From contig JAPLNA010000210.1 in assembly GCA_026693065.1 (NCBI GenBank), forward strand, positions 1-38,566: a DNA stretch of 38,566 nt, read 5' to 3'. Below, in pieces: positions 6,904-29,278 of the stretch (the first letter of the stretch is position 1; each line of letters opens with the position of its first letter). The stretch comes from Planctomycetota bacterium. GTDB lineage: Bacteria > Planctomycetota > Phycisphaerae > SM23-33. The notes beneath the pieces were generated by a model that was not told the origin of the DNA, did no database searches, and saw only the letters and a program-made list of their open reading frames with translations. The position numbers were made by a program, and so were the translations under genes.

Positions 6904-6921
6904 GAAGGACAGTATACCGGC

Positions 6922-6927
6922 ATTATA
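6922..6927 (-). promoter_or_regulatory. candidate -10 box upstream of paralogue 1
   Basis: TATAAT on the minus strand, followed by GCCGG. The same context (TATAATACCGG) occurs upstream of paralogue 3 at 10391-10386, with the same distance to the aligned start codon. No good -35 box is seen in either case. Transcription from it would begin near 6915, leaving about 12 nt before ATG 6903 or about 42 nt before CTG 6873. Confidence 0.45.
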
Positions 6928-6957
6928 CCTGTGGGGGGAACAAGGGGCTGAAAGGAG

Positions 6958-8619
6958 TCACGGGGCCATGGAGCCTTGTTGCAGGTAGATCTGCCGGATC
7001 TCCGCGGCCGACAGGGCGCATCGAAAGACCATGACCTCGTCGATGAGTCCGTCAGACCCGGTTCCGGTGCGGGTGTCCTGGTGGGCCATGATCCGGAGGT
7101 CCTGGGCGATTTCCAGGACGGGGCCGCCGTTGCCTTCGCTCGCGATAGTGTAGCCGCCGGTCTCCTTGCCGTCGACGTACAGCTTGATCTTGTTGCCCGG
7201 GCCGCGGGCCTCGTCGTAGGAGAAGGCCACGTGGCGCCATTCGTTGGGCTTGATCGGGCGCGAGGGGGAACTGTACCGCAGGTACACTTCGCGGGCCTGC
7301 CCGAAGATGACGTCCAATCCGCTGCCCGGACCGGCCGTGAAGAAGAACTGCCCCGCGTAGGCCATCCCCCCATGGTAATTGCTGAGGACGGCCACGTTCT
7401 GCCCCCGGACGTAGACCCACGCGCAGACGCTGAACTGCCCCTTGACCTTGAACAGTGTGCCGGGCACCAATTCGATGTAGTCCTTCTTTCCGTCGAAGTC
7501 GTAGGCCCCGCCGGCTTTGCCGTGGGACGTCCAGGTCGCTCCGTAGACCATGCCGTGATTGCCGTTCCCGCTCTTGTCGAGAACCTTGTTTCCCTTCTCG
7601 TCAAAGGTGTAGTGTACGAGGAGGTTCGTCGCCGCGTGCGAGCTCAGGGGGTTGGCGGCGCTCAGCGCCTTGTCGATCTTCTCCAGCAATACCGTGCCCT
7701 TCAGCCGTGTGGCGTCCGGGTCGGTGTGTAGCTCCAGAAACCGCTCGCCGCAAGCCCTGGCCTTGCCCAGGAGAACGCTCTTACCGGCGGGGGAGGAGAC
7801 CTTCTCGGCGAGCTCGGGATACCAGTTGGCCAGTTCCCAGCAGGCCGACTCGGCTAACTCCCCCACGGGCCTGGCCGCCAGCGGAAGATAGGTGCGGAAC
7901 TTCGCGTCCAGGTCGTCGCTCAGGAGTTTGGCCGCCTCGGCGGGGTCGTCGGCCTCGCCCAGGTAGGCCAGGATCAGGCTGGTCCGGGTGGGGACGCTCT
8001 TGGGGCTGTCCTTGAGCCGCTTTCTGAGATTGGCGAGTTTCGCCTCCAGCTCGATGGCCGCAGTGGTCTGCTTGATCTTGTCGGAGACCTCGCCGGCGCG
8101 GGCGGGGGCGGCGCCTTTGGCGACTTCCAGGGCCTTGTTGTAACTGGCCAGGGCGTTGGTGAGCGCCCCGGCGGCGGCCTGTTCGTCTCCGGCGGCCAGC
8201 CACAGATCGATCAGCTCCTCGCCCAGCCGCTTGCGGTCGGCGCGGGGGCTTTTGGCCAGGCGAAGCTCGCAGGCCTCGAGGATTCTCTTCTGGGCAAGGG
8301 GCTTCTTGTCCGGGACGGCCGAAGCCAGGAGCTTCATCGCGTCGATGGCGGAGGAGTATCCGGCGGGTTCCTTCATGCCGAACTCGTAGGCCTTTTCGTA
8401 GAGCAGGGCCTGGAAGTCCGGCTGTTTTGCGACGCCCTTGGCGGCGTCGAGGAGCTTGGCGGCGAAGTCGGCGGAGGCCCGGGCCCCGCCGGCGAGAACG
8501 GATTTCTCCTCTTCGCCGAAGACGGCCTTGTAATCGGCGGCCGGGTCGCCCAGCGCTCGCGCGGATAAGCCCAGAACCACCAGTCCCGCCACCACCCAAC
8601 TAATGCTTGATCTGGTCAT
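6958..8619 (-). CDS. exported helical-repeat protein with C-terminal LamG domain (paralogue 2)
   Basis: This protein has 553 residues and the same layout as its downstream neighbour: a signal peptide (SWVVAGLVVLGLSARALG), a helical module of about 330 residues, then a LamG domain (LLVHYTFDEKGNKV, SGNGNHGMVYG, FSVCAWVYV, WRHVAFSYDEA, IKLYVDGKETGG, IDEVMVFRCALSAAEI). It is probably extracytoplasmic with a carbohydrate- or protein-binding C-terminus. The start at 8619 has GGGAAGGA about eight bases upstream. Only 29 nt separate it from the stop of paralogue 3, so the two are probably co-transcribed. The middle of the helical module is nearly identical at DNA level to paralogue 1, while the LamG halves have diverged strongly. 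The ligand is unknown. Confidence 0.88.
   Translation of the reverse strand: MTRSSISWVVAGLVVLGLSARALGDPAADYKAVFGEEEKSVLAGGARASADFAAKLLDAAKGVAKQPDFQALLYEKAYEFGMKEPAGYSSAIDAMKLLASAVPDKKPLAQKRILEACELRLAKSPRADRKRLGEELIDLWLAAGDEQAAAGALTNALASYNKALEVAKGAAPARAGEVSDKIKQTTAAIELEAKLANLRKRLKDSPKSVPTRTSLILAYLGEADDPAEAAKLLSDDLDAKFRTYLPLAARPVGELAESACWELANWYPELAEKVSSPAGKSVLLGKARACGERFLELHTDPDATRLKGTVLLEKIDKALSAANPLSSHAATNLLVHYTFDEKGNKVLDKSGNGNHGMVYGATWTSHGKAGGAYDFDGKKDYIELVPGTLFKVKGQFSVCAWVYVRGQNVAVLSNYHGGMAYAGQFFFTAGPGSGLDVIFGQAREVYLRYSSPSRPIKPNEWRHVAFSYDEARGPGNKIKLYVDGKETGGYTIASEGNGGPVLEIAQDLRIMAHQDTRTGTGSDGLIDEVMVFRCALSAAEIRQIYLQQGSMAP
7787..8250 (-). repeat. near-identical tract, copy B (paralogue 2)
   Basis: Partner of 6041-6504, with 8 mismatches in 464 positions counted by eye. 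It encodes the central part of the helical module, from LGEELIDLWLAAGDEQ to the stretch ending in WYPELAEKVSSPAGK. Almost all protein residues there are the same in both copies. Confidence 0.8.
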
Positions 8620-8648
8620 TCTCGTGTCCTTCCCATGTCGCCCAAGGG

Positions 8649-10337
8649 CTATTTCAAGTCCACGGCAACGCGGAACCCGTAGCTGCCGTGCCGACTGCCG
8701 GGCGAGTTCCCGTTGCGGCGCGCGGACCGACAGAACAGCGGATTGCCGTACCAACTGCCGCCGCGCAGAACACGAAGCGTGCCAGAAGCCACCCCTTGCG
8801 TGTCACGGGTTCCCGCATTTGCGTAAGAGTCTGCAAACCAATCGCTGCACCATTCCCACACGTTCCCGTGCATGTCGTATAGGCCCCAGGCATTGGGCTT
8901 CTTCTGGCCAACCGGATGAGTCCTGCCGCCGCTGTTGGCACTGGACCACGCATAATTGCCCAGGTCGGCGTCCTTGTCGCCAAAGCCGAACCTGGTTTTT
9001 GTTCCCGCACGGCAGGCGTATTCCCACTGGGCCTCCGTCGGCAATCGTACCTTCTTGCCCGTCTTGGCCGAAAGCTTCTTGTCGAACTCGACAGCATCAT
9101 TCCACGAAACCTGTTCCACCGGATTCTTCGCGTCCTTGAAGGCACTGGGGTTGTTGCCCATGACGGTCTGGTACTGATCCTGCGTTACCTCGTCGAACAC
9201 CCCCATGTAAAACGGCTTGATGATCGTCACCACCCGCTGAGGGCCTTCGTTGGGTAAGCGGTCATCCTCAGTCCCAGGGCTCCCCATTACGAAATTTCCC
9301 GCCGGGATCAGGACCAGCCGCATCGCTACGCCTTTGCCCAGCTCCAACGTGATAAACTTGGAGAACTCCGGACCAGCCTTCTCCATCGCCTTGGCGATCA
9401 TCTCCCGCAACTTCGTCACCTTCAGCCGGGCGGCATCCTGGGCCGTGTGAAGTTCAAGGTATCGCTCGCAACATGCCAGGCCTTTGCCCAGGAGCACGCC
9501 CTTCCCGTTCGGCGAGGCCTTCTCGGCAATCTCCGTATACCAGTTGGCCAACTCCGGACAGGCCGCTTCCTCCAGGTCCGCCACGGGTTTAGCCGAAAGA
9601 GGCACGTAGGTGCGGATCTTCTCGTCCAGGTCGTCGGTCAGGAGCTTGACGGCCTCCGCGGGGGTGTCGAACTCCCCAAGGTACGCCACGATCAGATTCG
9701 TCCGGGCGGCCGCGCTCTTGGGATTCTCTTCCAGTTTCTTCCTGAGATCGGTGAGTCTCTTCTTGCCTTCCGCGCGGATGGTAATCTGGTGGATCTTCTC
9801 CTTGATGTCCTCGGCCTGCCCGAAATTCGCCCGGTTGGCGACTTCCAGAGCCTTGTTGTAGGAGGCGATGGCATCCGCCCCCTGCTCGGCGGCCGCTTGT
9901 TCATCTCCCCTGGCGACCAGAAGATCCACCAACTCTTTGCCGAAACGCTCGCGTTCGGCCACGGGGCCTTTGGCAAAACCAAGCTGGAGGGCCTCTATGC
10001 GTTTTCCTACAGCCGACCCTTTCTGGTCCGGCGCGACCACTGCAAGGAGTATCGTGGCGTCGATGGCCGTCTGATATCCGGAGGGATCCTTCATGCCAAA
10101 GCCGAACGCCTTCTCGCAGAGCAATACCTGAAGGTCTTTCTGCTCGCCCAGGACCTTGGCGTCCTTGAGGAGTGCGGCGGCGTATCCTGCCTGGGCCTGG
10201 GGTCCTTTGTCGATGGCGGCCTTCTCCTCCTTGGAATACAACTCGTCATACGTTTCCTTCGCGCCCGCCGCCGCTCGAGAGGACAGACAAAGAACCACCA
10301 TTCCCGCCGCCGCCCAAAGGAGGGCTAATCTGGTCAC
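8649..10337 (-). CDS. exported helical-repeat protein with C-terminal FGE/SUMF1-like domain (paralogue 3)
   Basis: This protein has about 562 residues. Its signal peptide and helical module are homologous to the two LamG paralogues (RTNLIVAYLGEFDTPAEAVKLLTDDLDEKIRTYVPLSAKPV), but the C-terminus is a formylglycine-generating-enzyme-like sulfatase-modifying-factor fold. Family motifs are IPAGNFVMGSP, NPVEQVSWNDAV, RLPTEAQWEYACRAG, GLYDMHGNVWEWC and RVLRGGSWYGNPLFCRSARR. True FGE needs two copper-binding cysteines in the last motif. Here the first position is Gly and only the second Cys remains, so formylglycine formation is unlikely and a binding role is more plausible. The GTG start at 10337 has GGAAAGG upstream and aligns with the ATG start of paralogue 2. 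ATG 10367 in the same frame is the alternative. It is the first gene of the tandem. Confidence 0.85.
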   Translation of the reverse strand: MTRLALLWAAAGMVVLCLSSRAAAGAKETYDELYSKEEKAAIDKGPQAQAGYAAALLKDAKVLGEQKDLQVLLCEKAFGFGMKDPSGYQTAIDATILLAVVAPDQKGSAVGKRIEALQLGFAKGPVAERERFGKELVDLLVARGDEQAAAEQGADAIASYNKALEVANRANFGQAEDIKEKIHQITIRAEGKKRLTDLRKKLEENPKSAAARTNLIVAYLGEFDTPAEAVKLLTDDLDEKIRTYVPLSAKPVADLEEAACPELANWYTEIAEKASPNGKGVLLGKGLACCERYLELHTAQDAARLKVTKLREMIAKAMEKAGPEFSKFITLELGKGVAMRLVLIPAGNFVMGSPGTEDDRLPNEGPQRVVTIIKPFYMGVFDEVTQDQYQTVMGNNPSAFKDAKNPVEQVSWNDAVEFDKKLSAKTGKKVRLPTEAQWEYACRAGTKTRFGFGDKDADLGNYAWSSANSGGRTHPVGQKKPNAWGLYDMHGNVWEWCSDWFADSYANAGTRDTQGVASGTLRVLRGGSWYGNPLFCRSARRNGNSPGSRHGSYGFRVAVDLK

Positions 10338-10385
10338 GTTTATGCCCTTTCCGCGTCGCCGCCGCATGCCAAGGGGCGCCCCGGT

Positions 10386-10391
10386 ATTATA
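10386..10391 (-). promoter_or_regulatory. candidate -10 box upstream of paralogue 3
   Basis: TATAAT on the minus strand followed by ACCGG, the same context as at 6927-6922. A TTGACC lies upstream at 10409-10404, but the 12-bp spacing is too short for a standard sigma-70 promoter. Initiation near 10379 would leave about 42 nt before the GTG start. Confidence 0.45.
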
Positions 10392-10467
10392 CGCCACAGG
10401 GCAGGTCAACCGTGAGGCCCGCCTGAAAGAGTAGACGCTCGGGGGGGCGGGCAGGTTCCCGCTGGTG

Positions 10468-17537: not shown

Positions 17538-17951
17538 TCAGCCCTGTTCGTGGCAGCGGCAGAACGAGCCGGTCGGTTGCAGCGTGCCCTCGAGAAGGCC
17601 CTGCAGGGCCTGGTCGGCGGTCATCTCGCCGATGGCGGCGACCATGGGGCGAACCCCGGCGGCGGCCAGCTCCTGCGCCGCCCGCCCGCCCATCCCGCCG
17701 CACAGCATCGCCTGGCAGTCGCTCAGGGCCGTAACCACCTGGGCGTGACTGTGCGAGGCGTCGTGATGGTGTTCGTGGCCGTCCTCGCCCCCCTTGCACA
17801 GCCCCTGGGCGTGCGGCGTAAAGGTGTTGTCGCGCACCTCGCGCGAAACGATCTTGTTCCCGTCATCCAGGGTGTAGACAACGAAACAGGTGCTGCGCCC
17901 GAAATGGGCCGAGACGGCCACGCCGTCCGTTGAGGCAACCGCGATCTTCAT
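17538..17951 (-). CDS. NifX/NafY-type dinitrogenase FeMo-cofactor biosynthesis family protein
   Basis: This 137-residue protein belongs to the NifX/NifB-C-terminal/NafY fold, which binds iron-sulfur or metal-cluster precursors. It opens with MKIAVASTDG and SAHFGRSTCFVVY, the standard family start. It ends in GGMGGRAAQELAAAGVRP and a CRCHEQG tail. A histidine-rich insertion at residues 57-69 (GHEHHHDASHSH) and Cys22, 52, 79, 84, 131 and 133 suggest metal binding. No nitrogenase gene is present, and such orphan proteins are common outside nitrogen fixers. It starts 31 nt after the DUF134 gene stop, with CAGGAGAC upstream, so the two form an operon. Confidence 0.88.
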   Translation of the reverse strand: MKIAVASTDGVAVSAHFGRSTCFVVYTLDDGNKIVSREVRDNTFTPHAQGLCKGGEDGHEHHHDASHSHAQVVTALSDCQAMLCGGMGGRAAQELAAAGVRPMVAAIGEMTADQALQGLLEGTLQPTGSFCRCHEQG

Positions 17952-17982
17952 TGTGAGTCTCCTGGCCGGTATTCCGGCCCCA

Positions 17983-18513
17983 TCATTGGTCCTGTGGGTT
18001 GTCGGTGGAAATCGGTCCGTGTGCCCGGCCTCCGTGGAGGCAGCGTCCGCGGCCCCGGCCGGGGCCTCCGCCTCGCCCGCCCTGACAGCCACGCCCGCCC
18101 CGGTCGTCGGGATGCCGGTGGACGTCCGCCCCGCCGCACCCGGGGCACCGGACCGGCCGCCCGCCCCCAAAGGGGACTTCCCATTCCTGTTGGCACTGGG
18201 CGCACTGGAACTTCCGCATTCGGGCCATTTCGATCACTCCGCCTTCAATTCGGAGGGCCTTGCCTTTGACCAGCATCTCGGCCACCTTCTTCCGGGCCGA
18301 TTCGACGATCCGGCCGAACGTCTGCCGCGACACGTTCATGAGCCCGGCCGCTTGCTCCTGGTAGAGGCCCTCCAGGTCCGCCAGACGCAAGGCCTCCAGC
18401 TCGTCCACCGACAGAACGACCTCTTCCAGGTCCGCGCACCGCACGCCGGCGGGCTTGAACAGCCCACGCGGCGGCGAGGCGGCGACTCTCCGGCAGCAGA
18501 TCGGTCTGGGCAT
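17983..18513 (-). CDS. DUF134 family DNA-binding protein with extra zinc-ribbon and Gly-rich tail
   Basis: This 176-residue protein is a DUF134 helix-turn-helix protein: MPRPICCRRV at the N-terminus, VVLSVDELEALRLADLEGL, then YQEQAAGLMNVSRQTFGRIV, a sigma-4-like helix-turn-helix. Family members commonly sit beside NifX-like proteins, as here. Typical members are about 100 residues. This one adds a CAQC-CPGC four-cysteine ribbon (Cys104, 107, 123, 126) and a Gly/Arg/Cys-rich tail. It probably regulates its own operon or senses metal or cluster status. The start at 18513 has GAGAAGAAGG upstream, and a strong promoter lies at 18563-18535. Confidence 0.88.
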   Translation of the reverse strand: MPRPICCRRVAASPPRGLFKPAGVRCADLEEVVLSVDELEALRLADLEGLYQEQAAGLMNVSRQTFGRIVESARKKVAEMLVKGKALRIEGGVIEMARMRKFQCAQCQQEWEVPFGGGRPVRCPGCGGADVHRHPDDRGGRGCQGGRGGGPGRGRGRCLHGGRAHGPISTDNPQDQ

Positions 18514-18628: not shown

Positions 18629-18657
18629 TTGGAATCGGGGGCGCACTGTGTTAGTAT
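18629..18657 (+). promoter_or_regulatory. promoter of the arsR-type operon
   Basis: TTGGAA (18629-18634) and TAGTAT (18652-18657) are separated by exactly 17 bp. The expected start, near 18664, falls inside the palindrome that begins at 18657, so a bound repressor would block initiation. Confidence 0.7.
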
Positions 18658-18674
18658 GTGAGCATACACTCACA
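18657..18674 (+). promoter_or_regulatory. ArsR-type operator palindrome
   Basis: TGTGAG, a six-base spacer CATACA, then CTCACA: a perfect inverted repeat overlapping the end of the -10 box and the start site. A second overlapping dyad, TATG-TGAG-CATA, spans 18655-18666. Position and symmetry fit autoregulation by the ArsR-family protein whose gene starts at 18688. Confidence 0.65.
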
Positions 18675-18687
18675 AAGGCGTGGAACC

Positions 18688-19014
18688 ATGAATCAGCAGA
18701 CCCTGAGACTGTACGAAATGAAGGCCCAGATCATCCAGGCGGTCGGCCAGCCGATCCGCCTGGCGATCCTCGATTTCCTCAAGGACGGCGAGCAGTGCGT
18801 CTGCGACATCGCCAAGGCCGTCGGGGCCGAACGGTCCAACGTCTCGAGGCACCTGACGGTTCTGCTGAACGCCGGCATCCTGGAGTGCCGCAAGGACGGG
18901 CTGAAGATGATCTACTCGCTTCGGACGCCCTGCATCATGAACTTCTTCTCCTGCGTCGCCGACGTGCTGAAGTCGCAACTGGCGAAAAACAACCGGGTGC
19001 TCCAGAAACTGTAA
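18688..19014 (+). CDS. ArsR/SmtB-family metal(loid)-responsive repressor
   Basis: This 108-residue winged-helix repressor has the family core from QPIRLAILDFLKDG through NVSRHLTVLLNAGILECRKDG. It carries Cys37 and Cys39 in EQCVCDIAKAV, the alpha-3 site used by arsenite-sensing ArsR proteins (CVCDLC in E. coli), but lacks the third cysteine of that motif. Cys67, Cys82 and Cys89 could complete a site. A thiol-binding ligand is therefore likely, but arsenic is not proven. The start at 18688 is chosen because the operator and start site lie immediately upstream. It is the first gene of the long redox/metal operon, 75 nt before the next gene. Confidence 0.9.
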   Translation: MNQQTLRLYEMKAQIIQAVGQPIRLAILDFLKDGEQCVCDIAKAVGAERSNVSRHLTVLLNAGILECRKDGLKMIYSLRTPCIMNFFSCVADVLKSQLAKNNRVLQKL

Positions 19015-19089
19015 AGCGTCTCTCATTTGCCCCAGTACGTGAGTGCGGAATCATATAGGCACAAGGCGCAGACCAGAAAGGACATCGAC

Positions 19090-19509
19090 ATGGCTGAATG
19101 CTGCGGAAAGAACAAGGCGAAGGCGCCGGGCGAATCGTGTGGCTGTGAAAAGAAGGAGACCGTTCTGCTCTACGCCTGCTCGGGCGGCGCCAACGTCGCG
19201 GAGGTCGCCGATCAGGCCGCCCGCCAACTGACGTCCCAGGGGTCCGGCTCGATGTTCTGCCTGGCCGGGATTGGCGCGGGGATTCCGGGCATGATTCAGA
19301 CCGCTCGGGACGCGGACGTGAACCTTGTCATCGACGGTTGCCCGATGGACTGCGGCAAGAAGGTCTTCGACAAGGCCGGCCTGACCAACTACGTCCAGAT
19401 CAAGGTGACCGACCTGGGCATCGAGAAGGTCAAGGTGGCTCGGGCGACGGAGGAGCAGGTGGCCACGGTGGTAGCCAAGGCGAAGGACGTCCTGGCCGCC
19501 GGACGGTAG
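19090..19509 (+). CDS. DGC-domain putative zinc-binding protein
   Basis: This 139-residue cytoplasmic protein is of the DGC family, named for an Asp-Gly-Cys motif, here at residues 82-84 followed by Cys88. Other cysteines are Cys4, 5, 17, 19, 30 (YACSGGANV) and 57, many of them in a Cys/Lys-rich N-terminal leader (AECCGKNK, SCGCEKK). Function is unproven in the family, which is often found next to ArsR regulators, thioredoxins and permeases, as here. It probably binds a soft metal through thiols and hands it on. The start at 19090 has AAAGGAC upstream. The next gene follows after 13 nt. Confidence 0.82.
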   Translation: MAECCGKNKAKAPGESCGCEKKETVLLYACSGGANVAEVADQAARQLTSQGSGSMFCLAGIGAGIPGMIQTARDADVNLVIDGCPMDCGKKVFDKAGLTNYVQIKVTDLGIEKVKVARATEEQVATVVAKAKDVLAAGR

Positions 19510-19522
19510 GAGCGAGGCTGCC

Positions 19523-19756
19523 ATGAAGACACTGCAGATCCTGGGGACCGGGTGCCCCAAGTGCAAGAAGCTCGCCGAGAATGCCGAAGCGGCCGCCAAG
19601 GCCATGGGCATCGAGTATGCCATCGAGAAGATCTCGGACCTCAAGGAGATCATGAAGTTCGGCATCATGATCACCCCGGCGCTGGTGGTGGATGGCGAGG
19701 TGAAAGTTGTCGGCAAGGTGCCCGATGCCGAGGCCATCAAGGCGATGCTGAGGTGA
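19523..19756 (+). CDS. thioredoxin-like small redox-active disulfide protein
   Basis: This 77-residue mini-thioredoxin has active site CPKC at residues 11-14 directly after the first strand (MKTLQILGTGC). The cis-proline loop ITPALVVDGE and the helix PDAEAIKAML are present. It lacks a signal peptide, so it should act in the cytoplasm. Members of this group (often called redox-active disulfide protein 2 or thioredoxin-fold MTH895-like) are recurrent neighbours of DUF318/ArsP permeases. It probably reduces a disulfide in the permease, the DGC protein or CcdA. AGGAGCGAGG precedes the start. Confidence 0.88.
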   Translation: MKTLQILGTGCPKCKKLAENAEAAAKAMGIEYAIEKISDLKEIMKFGIMITPALVVDGEVKVVGKVPDAEAIKAMLR

Positions 19757-19818
19757 TCCTGTTGCGGTCAACGGTTCATCGCTGACAAGGTCCAGTACGG
19801 ACGGAAAGGAGCCCTGCG

Positions 19819-20286
19819 ATGGAGAATCCACTGTTACCAAGGCCCTGCATGGGCGCGATGTTCGTCGTACCGGGTTTGGCTTTACTCCTGATCGCCGGCT
19901 GTCAGCAATCGTCGGGGGTACACCTCACGATCCCAGCCACCGGCTCGCCGCGTCTTGTGGATCTTGGCCTGACCTTCTGTCTCCCTTGCGCGTTGATGGC
20001 GCCGGATCTTGAAGAACTGAAGAGGGAATACGCCGGTCGGCTTGAGGTCGATTTCATCGACACCCTCAAGAATCCCGACGCGAAGACGCAGTACAACGCG
20101 CCCTTCTGTGCCACCCAGATCTTCCTCGATGCATCCGGGAAGGAGTTGTCCCGGCACGTCGGGTATTACTCGAAGAAGGACATCCTGGCCAAGTGGAAGG
20201 AACTGGGCGTGGACCTGGACGCCCCGCCGCCACAGCGGCAACCCGGGAGCGTCGCCCCGGCCAATCGGACCAGCTCGGGCGGATGA
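19819..20286 (+). CDS. thioredoxin-family lipoprotein
   Basis: This 155-residue protein has a signal sequence ending in a lipobox (LLLIAGC, Cys28) and a thioredoxin domain with active site CLPC at residues 54-57. The domain keeps PRLVDLGLTFCLPCALMAPDLEELKREY, but the usual cis-Pro loop reads FCATQIFLD: alanine stands where the sister proteins have Ile-Pro, and proline is missing. An additional Cys lies in that loop. Reduced substrate specificity or a modified redox role is possible. The Pro/Gln-rich tail is disordered. It should face the outside of the cytoplasmic membrane and receive electrons from the CcdA-type protein. AAAGGAG precedes the start. Confidence 0.85.
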   Translation: MENPLLPRPCMGAMFVVPGLALLLIAGCQQSSGVHLTIPATGSPRLVDLGLTFCLPCALMAPDLEELKREYAGRLEVDFIDTLKNPDAKTQYNAPFCATQIFLDASGKELSRHVGYYSKKDILAKWKELGVDLDAPPPQRQPGSVAPANRTSSGG

Positions 20287-20377
20287 CGCCGGTGCCTGCT
20301 GCGTCATCGTGTGCCGACGAAGGACAAGAGTGGCGACCTGGCGGGCGAGGCGGTCGTCATGAACCAAGGAAATCAGG

Positions 20378-21799
20378 ATGAATTGGATTTTGGCACAGTG
20401 TCCATGCAGCGGTGGCGGCGGCGTTTCCGGCGGCATACCCGCGTGGATCATCCTGACGGCGACTTTCGGTCTGTGGCTGCTGATCAGCCTCATCTGGTAT
20501 AGGAAAGGTGCATCAACCATGAGCAAGGTAGGCAAGATCGCCATCGTCGTCGTGCTGGCCGCTGCGGTCATTGGCGTAGTCGTCATGAAGAAACGCAGTA
20601 CCTCATCTCCCGCCACACAGCCGACCAGCCAGACGGCCAGCGGCCTGCCGCGCCTGGTCGATCTGGGGTCCACCACATGCGTCCCCTGCAAAATGATGGC
20701 CCCGATCCTGGAAGAACTGGAGAAGGAATACGCCGGGCGGATGCGGGTGGAGTTCATCGACGTGAACCAGAACCCCGACGCGGCCAAACCGTTCGGCATC
20801 CAACTGATCCCCACGCAGGTGTTCTTTGACGCCTCCGGCAAGGAGCTTTGGCGGCACAAGGGCTTCATATCCAAAGAGGACATCCTGGCCAAGTGGAAGG
20901 AATTCGGCGTGACGTTCGCCGACGCGCAGACGGCGGCTTCGCAACCGGCCAGTGCTCCGGTGGTTGAACGGCTGGCACCGGCCAAGGCCGATACCCGGGC
21001 CAAAGACGCCGTCTGCTACCTGTGCGACAAGGACATCGACGCCAAGACGCTTGTGGTCGTGAAGACAGACAAGGGCGACGTGCGGCTGTGCAGCCCGCAC
21101 TGCTTCTTCATCATGTACTCCTGCCTGACCGAGGACAAGACGGGATTCGAGCAGAAGGTTTCCGTCACGGACTGGGGCACGGGGAAGGCGATTCCGGCGA
21201 TGGAGGCGACCTACCTGTACGGCTTGGACGTCAAGACGGGGCGGCCGACGATCAAGGCGTTCGGAGACAAGGACGCCGCCGATAAGGAACTGAAGGCATC
21301 GGGCGGAAGCCTGATCGCCTGGCAGATCGTGCAGGAGAAGGAACTGGAGAACCGGTGCGGATTCTGCGACCGGGCCTGCTACCCCGCGGATTCGGCGAAG
21401 GTGGCCGTCGGCGGGGTGAACACGTTGGGCTGCTGCTCTCACTGTGCGTTGGGCGTGGCGGCCCGCACCGGCAAGGATATCGAGGTCCACGAACGGGATC
21501 GCCTCACCGGCGAGGAAATCGTCATCAAGACCGCGGGAGGCAACGTCGCCTCCCTCCAGCCGGGCACGGCCGTTGGGTGGTTCGGCCTTCGCCAGGGGCC
21601 CGACGGCCAGTACGTCTCGGCCGGTTGTTTCCATCAGGGTTTCTTCGCCAGCCCGGACAATCTCAAGACATGGTTGGAGCAGAATCCCCTGGAGACCGGC
21701 AGGCTCATCACCATCCAACGGGCTCTGGCGGACAAGATGAAACTCAGCCCGCAGCAGATTCAGAAGGCGTGCAAGATGGGCCAGTGCGCCCCCAAGTGA
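20378..21799 (+). CDS. membrane-anchored thioredoxin fused to two cysteine-rich NosL/MerB/TRASH-like modules
   Basis: This 473-residue protein has a hydrophobic helix at 21-41 and a second at about 52-70, with a basic loop (YRKGASTMSKVGK) between them. Both ends are therefore predicted outside. The thioredoxin domain (90-178) has active site CVPC at 101-104 and cis-Pro in LIPTQVFFD. After an Ala/Pro linker comes a Cys module with CYLC (213-216) and CSPHC (238-242), then VTDWGTGKAIPAMEATYLYG, which resembles NosL. A second module follows with CGFCDRAC (327-334) and CCSHC (352-356), then GCFHQGFFASPDNLKTWLEQ, reminiscent of the NosL/MerB fold, and a C-terminal Cys465/Cys470 pair. A copper or soft-metal chaperone coupled to disulfide chemistry is the likely role. 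The second start at 20519 (Met48), with GGAAAGG upstream, would remove the first helix. Confidence 0.78.
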   Translation: MNWILAQCPCSGGGGVSGGIPAWIILTATFGLWLLISLIWYRKGASTMSKVGKIAIVVVLAAAVIGVVVMKKRSTSSPATQPTSQTASGLPRLVDLGSTTCVPCKMMAPILEELEKEYAGRMRVEFIDVNQNPDAAKPFGIQLIPTQVFFDASGKELWRHKGFISKEDILAKWKEFGVTFADAQTAASQPASAPVVERLAPAKADTRAKDAVCYLCDKDIDAKTLVVVKTDKGDVRLCSPHCFFIMYSCLTEDKTGFEQKVSVTDWGTGKAIPAMEATYLYGLDVKTGRPTIKAFGDKDAADKELKASGGSLIAWQIVQEKELENRCGFCDRACYPADSAKVAVGGVNTLGCCSHCALGVAARTGKDIEVHERDRLTGEEIVIKTAGGNVASLQPGTAVGWFGLRQGPDGQYVSAGCFHQGFFASPDNLKTWLEQNPLETGRLITIQRALADKMKLSPQQIQKACKMGQCAPK

Positions 21800-21873
21800 C
21801 GAGACCCCGTCTAACCGTTACAGAAGACAATCTCTCCGTCATGGTCCCAGACCAAGAAGAAATGGAGACGTTT

Positions 21874-22833
21874 ATGCGTAACCAATGGTGCTGGCGTCTG
21901 GTAGTCCTTGCCGTCGTGTGCATTGCCCTGTCGTACAGCCAGGGCTGGACACCCTCGCTCGAAGCGGCGGAGCCGGCTACCCGGCCCGCTGGTGACAGGC
22001 CGCTTGTGAACGATGCGTATCCCGGCCTCGCTTCGGCAGGGCTGCTGGGCGCCCGAGTGAGCGAACTGCCCGCCGGCGTTCTGGTCCGGGCCGGAGACCT
22101 CACGTTCACCCAGGCGAACCTCGACGCCGAAGTTGCCAAGGCCCCGCCGCCCGTCCAGGACCAGCTCAAGAAGAACGGCTTCTTCCTGATGGAGCAGATG
22201 GTGACGAAAGCCCTGCTGGCGAAGGAAGCCGGGGCGGATGCCGGCAAGTCGGTCTCGGGCATGGATGAACGCGCCCTGGTTCAAGGCTACCTCGGCAAAC
22301 TGGCCGAGAAGGTGACGGTCAGCGACGACGAGATTGCCGAGTTCTACAAAAACAACAAGGACGCTGTGGACGGAGCGCCGCTGGAGAAGGTGAAGCCTCA
22401 GATCGCCGTGTATCTGCGGCAGCAGAAGCAGCAGGAACTGGTGGCTCGGCATGTCAGGACCCTGGGACAGCGCACCACCATCGAAGTCGCGGCCGCGTGG
22501 GGCAAGGAACAGGCGGTAGCAGCCAAGGACAACCCCGTGGACAAGGCCCGCCGTAGCGGCAGGCCGTCGCTGGTGGACTTCGGCTCCCAGGGCTGCCGGC
22601 CGTGCGAGATGCTCGCGCCGATCCTGGAGACCCTCAAGACCAAGTACGAGGGCAAGGCCAACGTTGTGTTCGTTTCCGTGCGGGAAGAGCAGATCCTGTC
22701 CTCCCGCTACGGCATCCAGGCCATTCCCGTGCAGGTCTTCTTCGACAAGGACGGCAAGGAAGTCTTCCGCCACGTGGGCTTCTTCCCCCAGGATGAAATC
22801 GAAAAGCAGATGGCGAAGATGGGGGTGAAGTAG
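21874..22833 (+). CDS. SurA-N-like helical domain fused to thioredoxin
   Basis: This 319-residue exported protein has an N-terminal hydrophobic segment (LVVLAVVCIALSYSQG) that is a signal peptide or anchor. Residues 68-200 resemble the helical chaperone part of SurA/PrsA foldases (GVLVRAGDLTFTQANLDAEV, MEQMVTKALLAKEAG, VTVSDDEIAEFYKNNKD, VKPQIAVYLRQQKQQELV). The parvulin isomerase domain expected next is absent. In its place is a thioredoxin domain with active site CRPC (241-244) and cis-Pro in IQAIPVQVFFD. It may hold an unfolded partner while exchanging its disulfides. The start at 21874 has GGAG seven bases upstream; ATG 21841 and 21862 are in frame. The stop abuts the CcdA start codon. 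Confidence 0.82.
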   Translation: MRNQWCWRLVVLAVVCIALSYSQGWTPSLEAAEPATRPAGDRPLVNDAYPGLASAGLLGARVSELPAGVLVRAGDLTFTQANLDAEVAKAPPPVQDQLKKNGFFLMEQMVTKALLAKEAGADAGKSVSGMDERALVQGYLGKLAEKVTVSDDEIAEFYKNNKDAVDGAPLEKVKPQIAVYLRQQKQQELVARHVRTLGQRTTIEVAAAWGKEQAVAAKDNPVDKARRSGRPSLVDFGSQGCRPCEMLAPILETLKTKYEGKANVVFVSVREEQILSSRYGIQAIPVQVFFDKDGKEVFRHVGFFPQDEIEKQMAKMGVK

Positions 22834-23532
22834 ATGGAGCAACTTTTTACAGCCTTGACCCGCGCCGTGGAGGGCGCCCCCGCGATTGCGCTGGGGGCGG
22901 CGTTCGTCTGGGGCGTTCTCAGCGTGCTGCTGAGCCCGTGCCACCTGTCGAGCATCCCGCTGATCGTCGGGTTCGTCAACGGACAGGGAGTTTCGACGGC
23001 CCGGCGGGCGTTCCTGGTCTCCCTCGCCTTCGCGGCGGGGATACTGACGACCCTCTATGCCATTTGCTACATCACCTACCAGATCGGAGGGATGATGGGC
23101 GATCTGGGGGCCTGGGCGAATTACCTCGTCGCGGGCGTCTTCTTCCTGGCAGGCCTGGTCCTGCTGGACGTGATCGCCCTACCCTGGTCGGGGCCGGGGC
23201 AAGTCGGCATGAAACGCAAAGGTCTGCTGGGGGCCTTCCTCCTGGGCCTGGTCTTCGGCGTCGCCCTGGGGCCCTGCACCTTCACCTACATGATCCCCCT
23301 GCTGGCCGTCACGATCTTCAAACCCGACGCCGCGCCGGTCTGGAGCGGGCTGCTCCTGGGCGTCTACGGCGTCGGGCATTGCGCGGTGATCGTCCTGGCC
23401 GGCACGAGCACCGGATGGGTGCAGGCGTATCTCCACTGGAACGAGAAGTCCAGGGGGGCGGTGATCCTCAAGAGAATCTGCGGCCTGCTGGTGCTGGCCG
23501 GCGGAGTGTATCTGATCTACCTGGCGAAGTGA
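22834..23532 (+). CDS. CcdA/DsbD-type transmembrane electron transporter
   Basis: This 232-residue integral membrane protein has about six helices. It carries the duplicated active-site signature of the CcdA/DsbD-beta family: LLSPCHLSSIPL with Cys36 and ALGPCTFTYMIPLL with Cys148. These two cysteines form the disulfide that passes electrons from cytoplasmic thioredoxin to proteins outside the membrane. Three exported thioredoxin proteins are encoded just upstream in the same operon and are the obvious acceptors. It starts directly after the preceding stop codon with no gap and ends two nt before the permease gene, so it is tightly co-translated. Confidence 0.92.
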   Translation: MEQLFTALTRAVEGAPAIALGAAFVWGVLSVLLSPCHLSSIPLIVGFVNGQGVSTARRAFLVSLAFAAGILTTLYAICYITYQIGGMMGDLGAWANYLVAGVFFLAGLVLLDVIALPWSGPGQVGMKRKGLLGAFLLGLVFGVALGPCTFTYMIPLLAVTIFKPDAAPVWSGLLLGVYGVGHCAVIVLAGTSTGWVQAYLHWNEKSRGAVILKRICGLLVLAGGVYLIYLAK

Positions 23533-23534
23533 CC

Positions 23535-24605
23535 ATGAGCTCAACCGACGAACCCGCCTGCTGCCCCGCCAAGCCCGCCAAACCCGCGCCCCGCGCGAGC
23601 ACGTGGGTCCTGGCGGGCCTCCTCGCCGTCGGCGCGTGGGTCGGGCTCTACGTCTGCCTCGAGCCCCTCGCCACGTGGGTCACCGGGTCGCTGCTGCACC
23701 TGGACCGCGGGGGGCGCCTGGGGCGGGCCGTCGAGTTCTTCCTCTTCGAGACCCCCAAGGTGCTCCTGCTCCTGACGGCCGTCGTCTTCGGCGTGGGGGT
23801 CATCCGGTCGTTCTTCACGCCCGAACGCACGCGGCGAATCCTGTCCGGGCGGCGGGAATCGGTGGGCAACGTGCTGGCGGCCGGGCTGGGCGTCGTCACC
23901 CCGTTCTGCTCCTGCTCGGCCGTGCCGCTGTTCATCGGGTTTGTCACCGCCGGCGTGCCGCTGGGGGTGACGTTCTCGTTCCTGGTGGCCGCCCCGATGG
24001 TCAACGAGGTGGCCCTGGTGTTGCTGTGGGGGCTGTTCGGGTGGAAGGTGGCGGCGATCTACACGGGCACGGGGCTGGCGATCGCCGTCCTCGCCGGGTG
24101 GACCATCGGGCGGATGAAACTGGAGGCGTGGGTCGAGCCCTGGGTTTACCAGGCCCAGGTAAACGCCCCCGCCCCGGACGAAAAAAACACCTGGGGCGGA
24201 CGCATGCGTCTGGGCCTGGACGCCGTGCGGGACATCGTGAGACGAGTGTGGCTGTTCGTGGTCCTGGGCATCGCCGTCGGGGCGGGCATTCACGGCTACG
24301 TGCCCGAAAACTTCCTGGCCTCCATCATGGGCAAGGACGCCTGGTGGGCCGTGCCCGTCGCCGTGCTCCTGGGCGTGCCGATGTACTCCAACGCCGCCGG
24401 CATCATCCCCGTGGTGCAGGCCCTGCTGGGCAAAGGGGCGGCCCTGGGCACGGTGCTGGCGTTCATGATGTCCGTCATCGGCCTGTCCCTGCCGGAGGCG
24501 ATCATCCTCCGCAAGGTGCTGACGGTGAAACTGATCGCGGTCTTCTTCGGCGTGGTGGCCGTGGGGATTCTGATTGTGGGGTACGTGTTCAATCTGATTA
24601 TGTGA
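23535..24605 (+). CDS. ArsP/DUF318-family permease (SO_0444-type efflux transporter)
   Basis: This 356-residue permease has about eight to ten membrane helices. The family hallmark is TPFCSCSAVPLFIGFVTAGVP (Cys125 and Cys127 in a helix break), with MVNEVALVLLWGLFG and the second-half repeat GVPMYSNAAGIIPVVQALLGKG. Characterised relatives export trivalent organoarsenicals (ArsP) or are linked to copper/zinc efflux (SO_0444). The short N-terminus carries a Cys-Cys pair (residues 9-10) facing the cytoplasm, which could receive a thiol-bound ligand. It is the last gene of the ArsR-led operon. It ends 11 bp from the stop codon of the convergent RND gene, leaving no room for a terminator. Confidence 0.88.
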   Translation: MSSTDEPACCPAKPAKPAPRASTWVLAGLLAVGAWVGLYVCLEPLATWVTGSLLHLDRGGRLGRAVEFFLFETPKVLLLLTAVVFGVGVIRSFFTPERTRRILSGRRESVGNVLAAGLGVVTPFCSCSAVPLFIGFVTAGVPLGVTFSFLVAAPMVNEVALVLLWGLFGWKVAAIYTGTGLAIAVLAGWTIGRMKLEAWVEPWVYQAQVNAPAPDEKNTWGGRMRLGLDAVRDIVRRVWLFVVLGIAVGAGIHGYVPENFLASIMGKDAWWAVPVAVLLGVPMYSNAAGIIPVVQALLGKGAALGTVLAFMMSVIGLSLPEAIILRKVLTVKLIAVFFGVVAVGILIVGYVFNLIM

Positions 24606-24616
24606 AGGGCGGCGTG

Positions 24617-27600
24617 TCAGTCGACGGTCCCGGCCACGCCGTGGCCGGGCCTTTGGGAGTAGAGAAGAGAGTAGACTACGGGGATTACGAGCAGGGTGAA
24701 GACCGTCGAGGCCAGCAGACCGAAGATGAGCGCCCAGGCCAGCCCGGAGAAGATGGGGTCGGTGGCGATGGGCAAGGCCGACAGCATGGCCACGCCGGCT
24801 GTCAGGAGGATCGGGCGGAGGCGCACGACGCAGCTTTCGATGATGGCTTCTTTCAGGCTCCGCCCTCGGCCCAGCGACAGGTGAACGAAGTCCACGATGA
24901 TGATGGAGCTTCGCGTCACGATGCCGGCCAGGGCGATCATGCCGATCATCGCGGTGGCGGTGAAGAACGTCGGGTTGCCGAACCCGCCCACCGTGCCGCC
25001 TGACAGCACGTTGAGCAGCCAGAAGCCCGGCATGATGCCGATGATCGTCAGCGGGATGGCCATCATCACGATCAGCGGAATGGCGAAGCTCTTGGTCTGG
25101 TGCACCAGCAGGATGTAGATGGCGATCAGGGCGGCGATGAACGCCAGGCCCATGTCGCGGAAGACGTCCAGCGTGAGTTTCCATTCGCCTTCCCCGAGGA
25201 AGCTGACGTCGATTCCGGGGGCGAGAGCCCAGGGAATGCCGCCTCCGTTGGCCAGGAAAGTGCGGCTGCGAATCGCGCGCGGCGGATTGTCGGAGACGAA
25301 CCCGGCGGCGCTCTTGGCGGCGTCGGGCGCTCGGTCTTTCGCCTGATCGGCCTGGATGTCCATGACGGCGTCGGCGGGGGGTCGGCCGGCCATTTCCGCC
25401 AGCACGTACATCACCGGGCGGAGGTTCTTGTGATAGATCGTCTGGTCAGCCGCGAGGGTCTCCCACCGCCCCAATTCCGCCAGCGGAACCATCGAGCCGT
25501 TGGCGCCCTTGACGAACACCATCGCGAGGTCTTCCGTGCTCGACCGCATGGGGCGCCCCAGGCGAAGGTCGATCAACAGCGGGTTGCGCTCGCCGGGTTG
25601 CTGCACGGTCCCGACGGGGGCCCCGGCCAGCAGCATCTGCTGCGTGCGGGCGATCTCCTCCACCGACACGCCGTGCAGGGCCGCCTTCTCCTGGTCGGGC
25701 ACGAACCGGTACTTCACCTGCGCCGCCTCGGTCATGTCGTCGACGTCCACCACGCCCGGCTCCCGCGCCAGCCGGCGATGCACGACGCCCGCCGCGGCGA
25801 CGAGGTCGGCGTAGGGGGTGCTCTCGCGGCCGTACACTTCCGCCACCACCGTCGAGAGGACCGGCGGACCGGGCGGGGCCTCGACGATCTTCAGCCGCGC
25901 CCCGTGCCGCCGGGCGATGTCCGTCAGGTCGTTCCGCAGGCGGAGCGTGAGGGGGTGCGTCTGGAGAGGCCGCTCCTTGCGGTCGACGAAGTTGATCTGG
26001 ACGTCGGCGACGTTGGGCCCCTGGCGGAGGTAGAAGTGGCGGACCATGCCGTTGAAGTCCATCGGGGCGGCCAGGCCGACGTAGGACGTGAAGTCGGTGA
26101 CCTCGCTCACGCCGGCGAGGTATCGCTCGATCTCGCCGACGGCGGCGTCGGAGCGTTCGAGCGTTGTGCCGTTGTCGAAGTCCAGCACGAGTTGCAGGTC
26201 GCTCTTGTTGCCGTCGGGCAGCATCTTCAGGGGGACGATCCGCATCATCGCCATGCCGGCGGCGAGCACGAGCAGCAGGCCCATGAGGGCCAGGAACGCC
26301 CACCCGGCCCGGCGGGTCTTGAGCAGAAGGCCCATGACGGGCGAGAAGAGGCGGTAGAGCAGCGTGGCTTTGACGTCGCCGGCGCCGTGAGCGCCCGCGC
26401 CCGGGGCGTGCGAGGAGGCCCCCAGCTTGTTGTATCGGCGTTTGAGAATGTGATACGTCAGCCAGGGCGTGATCGTGAACGCCACCACCATGGACATGAG
26501 CATCGTCACGGGCACGTTGAGGGCCATCGGTCGCATGTACGGGCCCATCATGCCCGAGATGAAGAACAGGGGCAGAAAGCTGGCGATGACGGCCAGCGTC
26601 GCGGTGATCAGGGGCGGTCGGATTTCGCTGACGGCCTCCAGGACGATGGGGCGGGTGGCCTTGCGGCGAAGGAAGAAGTGGCGGACGATGTTCTCCACGT
26701 CGACGATCGGGTCGTCCACAAGCAGCCCCAGCGAGAGGATCAGGGCGAACAGCGTCACGCGGTTGATCGTCAGCCCGGCCAGGAGATTGACGCCCAACGT
26801 CAGTCCGAACACGACGGGGACGGCCAGGGCGACGATCAGGCTCTCCCGCCAGCCCAGGGCCACCGTCAGCACCGCCACCGCCAGCACGAGCGCCACGCCG
26901 AGGGCCTCGATCAGGTCGTTGACCTTGTCGTTGGAGTTCAGCCCGGTGTTGCGGGTGACGACCATCTCGACGTTGGCGGGTACGACGTCGGTCTTGAGTT
27001 TGTCGGCGGCGGCGAGAATGCTCTGGGCGACCGTGACGGCGTTGGCGCCTTTCTTCTTGGACAGGGCGATCGTGACGGCGGGCTGGCTGACCGAGGGGGC
27101 GTCCTTCGGGCCCGAGGCCTCGCCGATCAGCGAACCCGTCGTGCCTGCCCGCTCGGAAAACCCCCGGGCCGGGCCCCACCCGTGACGAACGTAACTGGAG
27201 ACCTCGTCTGGGCCGTCCACCACGTCGGCGACGTCCTTCAAAAACACCGGGGCGTTGTTGAACACCCCGACGACGAGTGGGTGCAGGTCGGCGGCGCTGG
27301 TGAAGACCCGCCCGGATTCGACGGTGAAGACGGCGTCGGCCTGGGTGAACTGGCCGGCGGTCACGCGGACGTTGGCGCCGGCGACCGCGCGTTGGATTTC
27401 CAGGGGGGAGACGTTGTAGCCGCGCATCCGCTGGCGGTCGAGGTGCACCTGGACCTTGCGGGGCTGTCCGCCCACGATGTAGGCCCGGGAGACGTCCTGG
27501 ACCGCCGAGAGCCGGGCGACGACCTCCTCGGCGATCCGCCGAAGGGTGTACGGGCTGTTGTCCGGGCTGGTGAGGGTCAGGTTGACGATGGGCACGTCGT

Positions 27601-28063
27601 CGATCTCGACGGGCTTGACGACCCAGGCCACCCCCGGCGGAGCGAGGGGGCGGTTCTCCTCGATCGTCTTGGAGAGCTTGACCAGGCTGCGTTCGCGGTC
27701 CTCGCCGACGTAGTACCGCACGGTGATGATGGCCTGGCCTTCCCGCGACATCGAGTAGACGTATTCGACCCCGTCGATCTGATACAGGATCTTCTCCAGC
27801 GGGGTGGCGACCAGCCGCTCGACCTCGGCGGCGGGCAGCCCGGGCGCGCTCACGTACACGTCCGCCATCGGCACGACGATCTGCGGGTCTTCCTCGCGCG
27901 GGGTGACGGTGACGGCCGTCAACCCGATCGCCACGGACAGGATCAGCAGGATGATCGGCAGGTTGCTGTGCAGGAACGACCGGACGATGCCGTTGGTCCA
28001 CCCGTGCTGGGCGTGATCGGCCAGAGATTCCGTGGTCGGCGTCTTGTCGGGGTCAGCGGTCAT
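24617..28063 (-). CDS. RND-family efflux pump inner-membrane protein
   Basis: This 1148-residue protein of the AcrB/MMPL superfamily has twelve expected membrane helices with two large extracytoplasmic loops. Visible marks are NLPIILLILSVAIGLTAV (first helix), TPREEDPQIVVPMADVYV, the proton-relay segment GLLVDDPIVDVENIVRHF with its Asp-Asp pair, and GIVTRSSIIIVDFVH in the second half, where AcrB's relay lysine is replaced by Arg as in several RND subfamilies. The substrate is unknown. The start at 28063 has CAGGAG seven bases upstream and overlaps the end of the adaptor gene by 11 nt. No outer-membrane TolC-type gene is in the window. Confidence 0.92.
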   Translation of the reverse strand: MTADPDKTPTTESLADHAQHGWTNGIVRSFLHSNLPIILLILSVAIGLTAVTVTPREEDPQIVVPMADVYVSAPGLPAAEVERLVATPLEKILYQIDGVEYVYSMSREGQAIITVRYYVGEDRERSLVKLSKTIEENRPLAPPGVAWVVKPVEIDDVPIVNLTLTSPDNSPYTLRRIAEEVVARLSAVQDVSRAYIVGGQPRKVQVHLDRQRMRGYNVSPLEIQRAVAGANVRVTAGQFTQADAVFTVESGRVFTSAADLHPLVVGVFNNAPVFLKDVADVVDGPDEVSSYVRHGWGPARGFSERAGTTGSLIGEASGPKDAPSVSQPAVTIALSKKKGANAVTVAQSILAAADKLKTDVVPANVEMVVTRNTGLNSNDKVNDLIEALGVALVLAVAVLTVALGWRESLIVALAVPVVFGLTLGVNLLAGLTINRVTLFALILSLGLLVDDPIVDVENIVRHFFLRRKATRPIVLEAVSEIRPPLITATLAVIASFLPLFFISGMMGPYMRPMALNVPVTMLMSMVVAFTITPWLTYHILKRRYNKLGASSHAPGAGAHGAGDVKATLLYRLFSPVMGLLLKTRRAGWAFLALMGLLLVLAAGMAMMRIVPLKMLPDGNKSDLQLVLDFDNGTTLERSDAAVGEIERYLAGVSEVTDFTSYVGLAAPMDFNGMVRHFYLRQGPNVADVQINFVDRKERPLQTHPLTLRLRNDLTDIARRHGARLKIVEAPPGPPVLSTVVAEVYGRESTPYADLVAAAGVVHRRLAREPGVVDVDDMTEAAQVKYRFVPDQEKAALHGVSVEEIARTQQMLLAGAPVGTVQQPGERNPLLIDLRLGRPMRSSTEDLAMVFVKGANGSMVPLAELGRWETLAADQTIYHKNLRPVMYVLAEMAGRPPADAVMDIQADQAKDRAPDAAKSAAGFVSDNPPRAIRSRTFLANGGGIPWALAPGIDVSFLGEGEWKLTLDVFRDMGLAFIAALIAIYILLVHQTKSFAIPLIVMMAIPLTIIGIMPGFWLLNVLSGGTVGGFGNPTFFTATAMIGMIALAGIVTRSSIIIVDFVHLSLGRGRSLKEAIIESCVVRLRPILLTAGVAMLSALPIATDPIFSGLAWALIFGLLASTVFTLLVIPVVYSLLYSQRPGHGVAGTVD

Positions 28064-29168
28064 GGGCTGGCTCCTGCGGGCCGGCGAGGGCGACCTTTTC
28101 ACCGGGCTTGAGGCCCGAAAGCACCTGGACGTAGGACTTTCCCCCGGCCTCGATCGGCTGGCCCAGTTGGACGTAGCGTCGCTCCGGACCGTTCGCGCCG
28201 GCCATGTCCACCATCGTCAGTTGTCCCACCTGCACGACCGCCGCCGGGGGGATCACCAGCACCCGCTTGTCCCCCAGGGGCACGAGGAGCTTGGCGTACA
28301 TGCCCGGGCGGACGCCGGCGTGGCAGGGGCCGACCACCTTGACCTGGAAGGTCCGCGTGACCGGGTCGGCCTGCGGGACGATCTCGCTGACCGTTCCCTC
28401 GCAGGCGGCCCCGAGATCCTCGAGGTAGACGCCGATCTTCTGCCCGGTCTTGAGGTTCTTCATCAGTCCCTCGCGGACGTTGGCGATGAGCTGCATCTTG
28501 TCATACAGGCTCACCAGCACCTGCCCCGGGGCGACGGTGTCGCCCACGTCGGCCCGCTTGTCGATCACGACGGCGTCGCCGGGGGCGAGGATCCGGGTGT
28601 ACTCCAGGTTCATCGCCGCCTCGTCGACGGCGCGCTGGGCGGCGAGGGCCTCGGCCTGGGCGCCCTCGAAACGGTACTTGGCGTTGTCGGCCTCGGTCAC
28701 CGTGGCGGCGCCCTTGGCGACGATGTCCTTGATGCGGTCGTAGGTCTTGGCGGCGTCGTCCCGGGCGGCCTGGGCGCTCTTGAGCTTGGCCTGGGCCATC
28801 TCCTTCCGGTTCTGCCAGGTCGAAGAGTCCAGCCTCACCAGCAGGTCGCCCTTGTGCACCTCCTGCCCGGCGGTGACGTTCATCTCGACGACCTTCTCGG
28901 GCTCGCGGACCTTGGCCGCCAGGGCCGTCTCGTGAAGCGGGCGGATCGTGCTGGGGGCCTGTTCCACCTCCGGCACGCTGACGAATACCGCCTCGACGAG
29001 CGAGGCCGCCGGGGCGGACGCGGGCCTGTCACTCCCGCCCGCCCGCGGGGGCACCTTGGGGGTGAACGCCCCGTCCAGGTACAGCATCAGCACGACGATC
29101 AGGGCGCCCAGCGCCCCCACGAGTGCGATCTTCAACAGCCATTTCGCCGCCTTGGGCCAGAGTTTCAT
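28053..29168 (-). CDS. RND efflux periplasmic adaptor (membrane fusion protein)
   Basis: This 371-residue adaptor links the RND pump to an outer-membrane channel. It has an N-terminal anchor helix (LLKIALVGALGALIVVLMLYL), a lipoyl-like half-motif (AAKVREPEKVVEMNVTAGQEV, HKGDLLVRLDSS), a helical hairpin of about 70 residues rich in Ala/Lys/Glu, the second lipoyl half (ILAPGDAVVIDKRADVGDTV), a beta-barrel domain and the membrane-proximal domain. The start at 29168 has GAGG eight bases upstream; the ATG at 29195 adds nine residues without merit. It is the first gene of the pump operon. Confidence 0.92.
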   Translation of the reverse strand: MKLWPKAAKWLLKIALVGALGALIVVLMLYLDGAFTPKVPPRAGGSDRPASAPAASLVEAVFVSVPEVEQAPSTIRPLHETALAAKVREPEKVVEMNVTAGQEVHKGDLLVRLDSSTWQNRKEMAQAKLKSAQAARDDAAKTYDRIKDIVAKGAATVTEADNAKYRFEGAQAEALAAQRAVDEAAMNLEYTRILAPGDAVVIDKRADVGDTVAPGQVLVSLYDKMQLIANVREGLMKNLKTGQKIGVYLEDLGAACEGTVSEIVPQADPVTRTFQVKVVGPCHAGVRPGMYAKLLVPLGDKRVLVIPPAAVVQVGQLTMVDMAGANGPERRYVQLGQPIEAGGKSYVQVLSGLKPGEKVALAGPQEPAHDR

Positions 29169-29278
29169 GTTCCATCCTCGTCGCAGACCGGCCACTCCGG
29201 GCCCGGTCCTGTCAAAAGGTTCGATCCGGAGCCGGGCCGAAGGTTACAATGCGTTGTCGATAGTATCGGGAATATCCA

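Follow-up and report, generated by a model that had tools for sequence, protein, structure and literature searches.

The window considered here, a 38,566-nucleotide stretch that makes up one whole contig (JAPLNA010000210.1) of the 5.68-Mb draft genome of a Planctomycetota bacterium (GCA_026693065.1), carries an eight-gene operon led by arsR, the fifth protein of which fuses thioredoxin, NosL-like and MerB-like domains and is here called TNM, a name coined for the thioredoxin-NosL-MerB fusion. On sequence grounds, the best reading of the locus is an ars operon of the known CcdA, thioredoxin and ArsE kind with a new periplasmic effector added, the type 'arsenic' being assigned from neighbouring genes. 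We put at about even the chance that this is an arsenic-responsive operon exporting reducing equivalents to TNM as a periplasmic, thiol-rich effector. The domain architecture of TNM is apparently undescribed so far: no family model covered describes the fusion, and no description of it was found in the literature covered, which excluded most subscription papers.

The TNM fusion protein

Residues 342-450 of TNM score 59 bits against the Pfam MerB model (cut-off 27); the part preceding them reaches 22 bits against NosL (PF05573), just under the cut-off of 24. NosL and MerB have a common fold that goes back to duplicated treble clefs of the TRASH type (PMC4999995). Pfam finds MerB and thioredoxin domains in 71/71 TNM members and NosL, at E<0.001, in 8/71. 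An AlphaFold2 model from 71 sequences has a predicted local distance difference test score (pLDDT) of 90.6, and its closest fold match in the PDB is mercury-bound MerB2 (5c17), which is also the sole PDB match to a profile of the NosL-MerB part. A plasmid search with the single TNM protein returned ordinary MerB matches only. An earlier note, made from the letters of the window without database searches, had recognised a thioredoxin (CVPC) and two Cys modules, which are indeed present, and had missed the MerB-like identity of one of them.

The C-terminal module shares the MerB fold and departs from it at the active site. The signature residues of MerB are numbered C96, D99, C117 and C159 (PMC8261052), and those of MerB2 align to C353, C356, D374 and C417 of TNM, so that the Cys equivalents of C96 and C159 are kept, with Asp99 replaced by Cys and Cys117 by Asp in 80/80 aligned copies. 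In an alignment of 81 sequences, with invariance counted among the sequences reaching each position, C101 and C104 of the thioredoxin domain are invariant (80/80), as are C327, C330, C352, C353, C356, D374, C417, C465 and C470 of the MerB part (80/80) and C213 and H241 of the NosL-like part (81/81). The CxxC pair C327/C330 and the cysteines C352, C465 and C470 are additions relative to MerB, as are the membrane anchor and the fusion to NosL-like and thioredoxin domains. Conservation of C417 and C238 is partly due to selection, because the peptide patterns by which relatives were retrieved include both; the other invariant residues lie outside those patterns. Each module holds a C-x2-C...C-x3-C set (C213, C216, C238 and C242 in the NosL-like part; C327, C330, C352 and C356 in the MerB-like part), a spacing from which C356 may belong to a zinc-type or a three-thiol site.

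Because the catalytic Asp99 is invariably Cys, ordinary organomercurial lyase chemistry is unlikely for TNM, and dealkylation, which the earlier note had listed beside capture and hand-over, is for the same reason less likely than binding or hand-over. This loss bears on a rival explanation in which TNM is a MerB-type carbon-metal lyase that cleaves organomercury or organoarsenic bonds, with its thioredoxin freeing the metal, as a Cys counterpart of the Sec-assisted organometallic (SAO) system of Clostridioides, reportedly described by Haft and Gwadz in 2023. Both systems combine a MerB-like protein, a thioredoxin-like protein and a SaoE-type permease, SaoE being the best NCBIfam model for the window permease (132.8 bits, below the cut-off of 325), and the universal MerB domain and the MerB2 fold match also speak for such a lyase. 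The window differs in lacking selenocysteine and SaoL, SaoB, SaoC and SaoX, in using Cys only, in its phyla, and in having ArsR and a CcdA-like relay. Besides the two exchanged signature residues, the lyase is opposed by a TNM score of 25 bits against a MerB cut-off of 200, by the lack of a match to the SaoL model and by the absence of MerA from 42/43 TNM genomes, although MerB without MerA is known, so that this absence alone does not exclude a lyase (PMC8261052). We judge it improbable. The more specific version, a periplasmic MerB-fold enzyme with a three-Cys site (C353, C356, C417), recharged by its thioredoxin in cis and by transmembrane electrons, that would work outside the cytoplasm to cleave carbon-arsenic or other carbon-metal bonds, seems to us equally doubtful. 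A canonical MerB lyase was rejected for want of Asp99, and a mercury operon likewise, with MerA over its cut-off in just 1/43 TNM genomes and no mer genes among the scanned neighbours.

TNM begins with a transmembrane helix, and 20/81 of the proteins, including that of the window, carry a further in-frame extension, in which a QCPC motif is joined by a second hydrophobic segment; with it, the start falls at 20378. The extension (20378-20518 in the window; also in the related loci L057, L060, L069, L070 and others) possibly adds one more pair of thiols on the outer side of the membrane. Its reading as a separate small gene was rejected, since all 20/20 peptides are in frame with TNM. We infer that the rest of TNM faces the periplasm, given the anchor, the CcdA-like partner and the lipoprotein signal on the sister thioredoxin (57% identical to the TNM thioredoxin domain).

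Relatives, gene linkage and the element probably handled

When 85,000 species genomes were scanned with the NosL-MerB alignment, 90 encoding places emerged, so that TNM is present in about 90 genomes. The 80 places fetched are all from uncultured bins, belonging to Planctomycetota, Verrucomicrobiota, Kiritimatiellota, Lentisphaerota, Armatimonadota, Omnitrophota and Riflebacteria, with one Desulfovibrio bin. Phylum labels are clustered on the TNM tree yet require 11 changes, and the window joins L055 and L070 (97/92). Within a planctomycete sample, full TNM is found in only 4/392 genomes, and the combination of mini-thioredoxin, thioredoxin, CcdA-like carrier and permease without NosL-MerB in many more.

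The gene association is far beyond chance. Among 56 loci with at least 3.5 kb upstream, TNM is accompanied by a mini-thioredoxin in 53, ArsR in 51, an ArsP-type permease in 45 and a DGC protein in 30; among 60 loci with at least 2.5 kb downstream, a carrier is present in 58 (CcdA-like in 49, ArsG in 9, never both), and it lies directly 3' of TNM in 34/74. L070 repeats the order of the window (ArsR, DGC, mini-thioredoxin, TNM, SurA-like/thioredoxin, carrier, permease) at 60-77% identity, with only the thioredoxin lipoprotein absent. The conserved gene order that the earlier note had proposed looking for in relatives was thus found. RND, TolC or adaptor genes stand in 19/80 TNM loci. Downstream of the TNM operon, 23 loci (e.g. 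L064:7330-8064) encode a flavodoxin-like NAD(P)H oxidoreductase that bears a signal of the twin-arginine type; the operon of the window lacks it.

A soft metal or metalloid had been suggested as the target; this is supported, and the neighbours now point to arsenic specifically. ACR3, ArsM and ArsA were recognised over their cut-offs in neighbouring clusters, and at least one of them is present in 38/80 TNM loci; ACR3 is found in 37/43 TNM genomes vs 78/199 planctomycete genomes (Fisher p = 1.7e-8, to be taken as indicative because the two genome sets differ in taxonomy). The source genome has ACR3, ArsM and ArsP clustered on another contig, and a Sulfuricella plasmid has a relative of the carrier (56%) within an ars island, together with ArsC, an arsenite methyltransferase and an RND pump. 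Several points weigh on the other side: in 42/80 loci the sequence fetched, many contigs being short, holds none of ACR3, ArsM and ArsA, the operon of the window likewise lacks ACR3, ArsM and ArsC, its carrier has no match to the Pfam DsbD model, NosL-like domains elsewhere handle copper, and the operon and its relatives are known from sequence alone.

A second rival explanation takes up the question of the metal, proposing a system for copper, for zinc or for envelope thiols in general, with a NosL-like metallochaperone and SO_0444-like efflux, the arsenic neighbours being there through clustering of stress genes. The NosL-like module is in its favour, Cys4-type motifs suit zinc or copper, and Nitratiruptor has one SO_0444 member that is responsive to Cd and Cu (PMC10092412). 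The permease, for which the earlier note had offered ArsP and SO_0444 together, nevertheless belongs with ArsP by both its PF03773 score and its C(S/T)C motif, its TPFCSC being the motif of ArsP cluster 2 (PMC4435449), and falls short of the SO_0444 Cu/Zn efflux model (NF033936, 80 bits, cut-off 300) as it does of SaoE, so that SO_0444-type efflux was rejected. With arsenic genes as the neighbours identified by profiles and an ArsR CVC[DE] site in most operons, this alternative strikes us as quite unlikely.

Operon layout, operator and putative redox partners

The eight genes (18688-24605, Table 1) are tightly packed and all lie on the plus strand, as an open reading frame check shows, with intergenic gaps of 75, 13, 62, 91, 74, 0 and 2 bases; the single strand and the closing gaps of 0 and 2 bases between the last three genes (exported thioredoxin, carrier and permease) are as first noted. 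Profiles and motifs likewise bear out the DGC protein, the CPKC mini-thioredoxin, the CLPC lipoprotein and the DUF318/ArsP permease.

Table 1. Features of the TNM operon in the window
Feature	Position	Strand	Basis or remark
arsR operator, TATGTGAGCATACACTCACAAA	18655..18676	+	last base 11 bases 5' of arsR start
arsR, ArsR/SmtB-type repressor	18688..19014	+	NF033788 78.9 bits, cut-off 55; C36-V-C38-D and second Cys pair
DGC-domain protein, Cys-rich N terminus	19090..19509	+	PF08859 1.6e-29
Mini-thioredoxin, cytoplasmic, CPKC, MTH895/ArsE family	19523..19756	+	TIGR00412 104.7 bits, cut-off 62
Thioredoxin lipoprotein, lipobox LIAGC, CLPC	19819..20286	+	PF00085 2e-6
TNM: QCPC-transmembrane extension, second membrane anchor, thioredoxin (CVPC), NosL-like, MerB-like	20378..21799	+	Pfam, AlphaFold2, PDB fold match
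Exported protein: signal peptide, SurA-like helical domain, thioredoxin CRPC	21874..22833	+	PF00085 5e-13
CcdA/ArsG-like membrane carrier, intramembrane Cys in SPCH and GPC motifs	22834..23532	+	best NCBIfam ArsG 42 bits, cut-off 200
ArsP-type permease (ArsP_1), TPF-CSC motif	23535..24605	+	PF03773 239 bits, cut-off 32.3

The operator reported upstream of arsR also held: the inverted repeat TGTGAG-N6-CTCACA (18657-18674) lies within a conserved 22-bp site that agrees with the palindrome TATGTGAGTATATWMTCACATA at 19/22 positions. That palindrome is present at 16/22 or better upstream of arsR in 26/53 related operons vs 4/530 mononucleotide-shuffled controls, and under a leave-one-out weight matrix the window site outscores all 60 shuffles; the conserved palindrome is the predicted ArsR operator. 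The ArsR of most related operons shares the CVC[DE] site and the second Cys pair. In L101, L104, L106 and L121 the place of the TATGTGAG palindrome seems to be taken by a second kind of operator, TTTGGC-N6-GCCAAA.

Two partner proteins need a more guarded description. Firstly, the exported protein had been called SurA-N-like plus thioredoxin; the thioredoxin (CRPC) is there, and the predicted structure has a pLDDT of 86, whilst the helical part matches SurA-like CBF2 (3rfw) weakly (E=0.0014), and its SurA fold stays weak because the fold search gave thioredoxins only among the matches listed. Secondly, the transporter had been called CcdA-type. The assignment, still putative, draws on weak matches to ArsG/DsbD-type profiles, 56% identity to a protein annotated CcdA and the intramembrane Cys pair in two helices that marks CcdA/DsbD proteins (first motif kept in 64/65 homologues, second in 59/65); with the DsbD profile, one homologue scores 25.9 bits and the window protein gives no match. 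In L034, L075, L087 and L099, ArsG stands in for the CcdA-like carriers and resembles them in having two conserved intramembrane cysteines (SPCP, SFCP); though named an efflux permease, it may therefore be an electron carrier instead of an exporter.

ArsEFG (TIGR00412, NF040494, NF040495) was reportedly described by Chen, Zhang and Rosen in 2019, and a third rival explanation models the operon on it as a reductase: the relay reduces the arsenical itself (nitro groups, pentavalent organoarsenicals) via periplasmic thioredoxins, the carrier or permease exports the product and TNM binds the substrate. The systems share an ArsE-family mini-thioredoxin, over its cut-off in the window, and a related carrier; moreover, the gene after TNM in L034 and L035 encodes an ArsF-family protein over the NCBIfam cut-off, followed in L034 by ArsG over its own, and ArsF-like proteins recur across TNM operons. 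The window, in contrast, has no ArsF (no match to NF040494) and no true ArsG (the carrier reaching 42 of the 200 bits of NF040495), and adds TNM, two further thioredoxins, DGC and the permease. Nitroaromatic arsenicals are rare in nature, and the two intramembrane cysteines kept by ArsG make an exporter role questionable here too; we hold the reductase to be unlikely. Castillo and Saier in 2010 found CcdA, a thioredoxin and redox-active disulfide protein 2 within ars operons (PMC2963123), which have in common with the window three redox parts, ArsP, ArsA or ACR3 around them and the idea of outward electron flow, considered there. They differ in being eight instances, mostly with ArsC, read as support for arsenate reductase, and in that TNM, DGC and the SurA-like thioredoxin were not described. 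The impression that the full set matched no described system apparently holds for TNM but not for the core, known from these operons and from ArsEFG.

Beyond the permease end, an RND pump and membrane-fusion protein (24617-29195, minus strand) run convergently with the operon and were not counted as part of it, although RND or adaptor genes do occur in other loci. Both the window (17538-18513, minus strand) and L070 (16497-17461) have DUF134 and NifX-like genes close to the operon, in differing orientations; found in the window and one relative only, they were rejected as members of the system. So was the adjacent PhoBR/Pst set, related loci having no PstS, PstC or PstA, with PhoR matches in 2 and PhoB matches in 3. 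Further away (5203-10409, minus strand), the open reading frames 5203-6903, 6958-8754 and 8649-10409 have a similar N-terminal region, suggesting tandem duplication.

A probable relay to the periplasm

Under the preferred reading, an arsenic-responsive relay serving TNM, the CVC site of ArsR would sense a trivalent metalloid and release the operator; the cytoplasmic mini-thioredoxin would reduce the CcdA/ArsG-like carrier, and the carrier in turn the periplasm-facing thioredoxins, namely the lipoprotein, the thioredoxin domain of TNM and the exported protein with the SurA-like domain. These would hold the invariant cysteines of the NosL/MerB-fold modules in the reduced state. Reduced TNM would then bind trivalent arsenic or organoarsenic as it exits by the ArsP-type permease and transfer it further, the recipient in many loci probably being an RND or ABC exporter. 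Taken together, a cytoplasmic mini-thioredoxin, a two-Cys membrane carrier and exported thioredoxins are most naturally read as an outward thiol relay, as the earlier note had suggested. We infer the direction of electron flow from the chemistry of CcdA and thioredoxins, and the binding and passing on of trivalent (organo)arsenic by TNM from its neighbours and cysteine content; the RND, TolC and adaptor genes of related loci would fit export across the envelope.

Known arsenic resistance is mainly a matter of the cytoplasm and inner membrane, and handling on the outer side, powered by exported reducing equivalents, would add a stage to detoxification. TNM, a MerB fold in which Asp99 has become Cys, is a concrete candidate for testing the conversion of a mercury lyase fold to another element, and what ArsE, ArsG and CcdA do within ars operons, in question since 2010, becomes directly testable.

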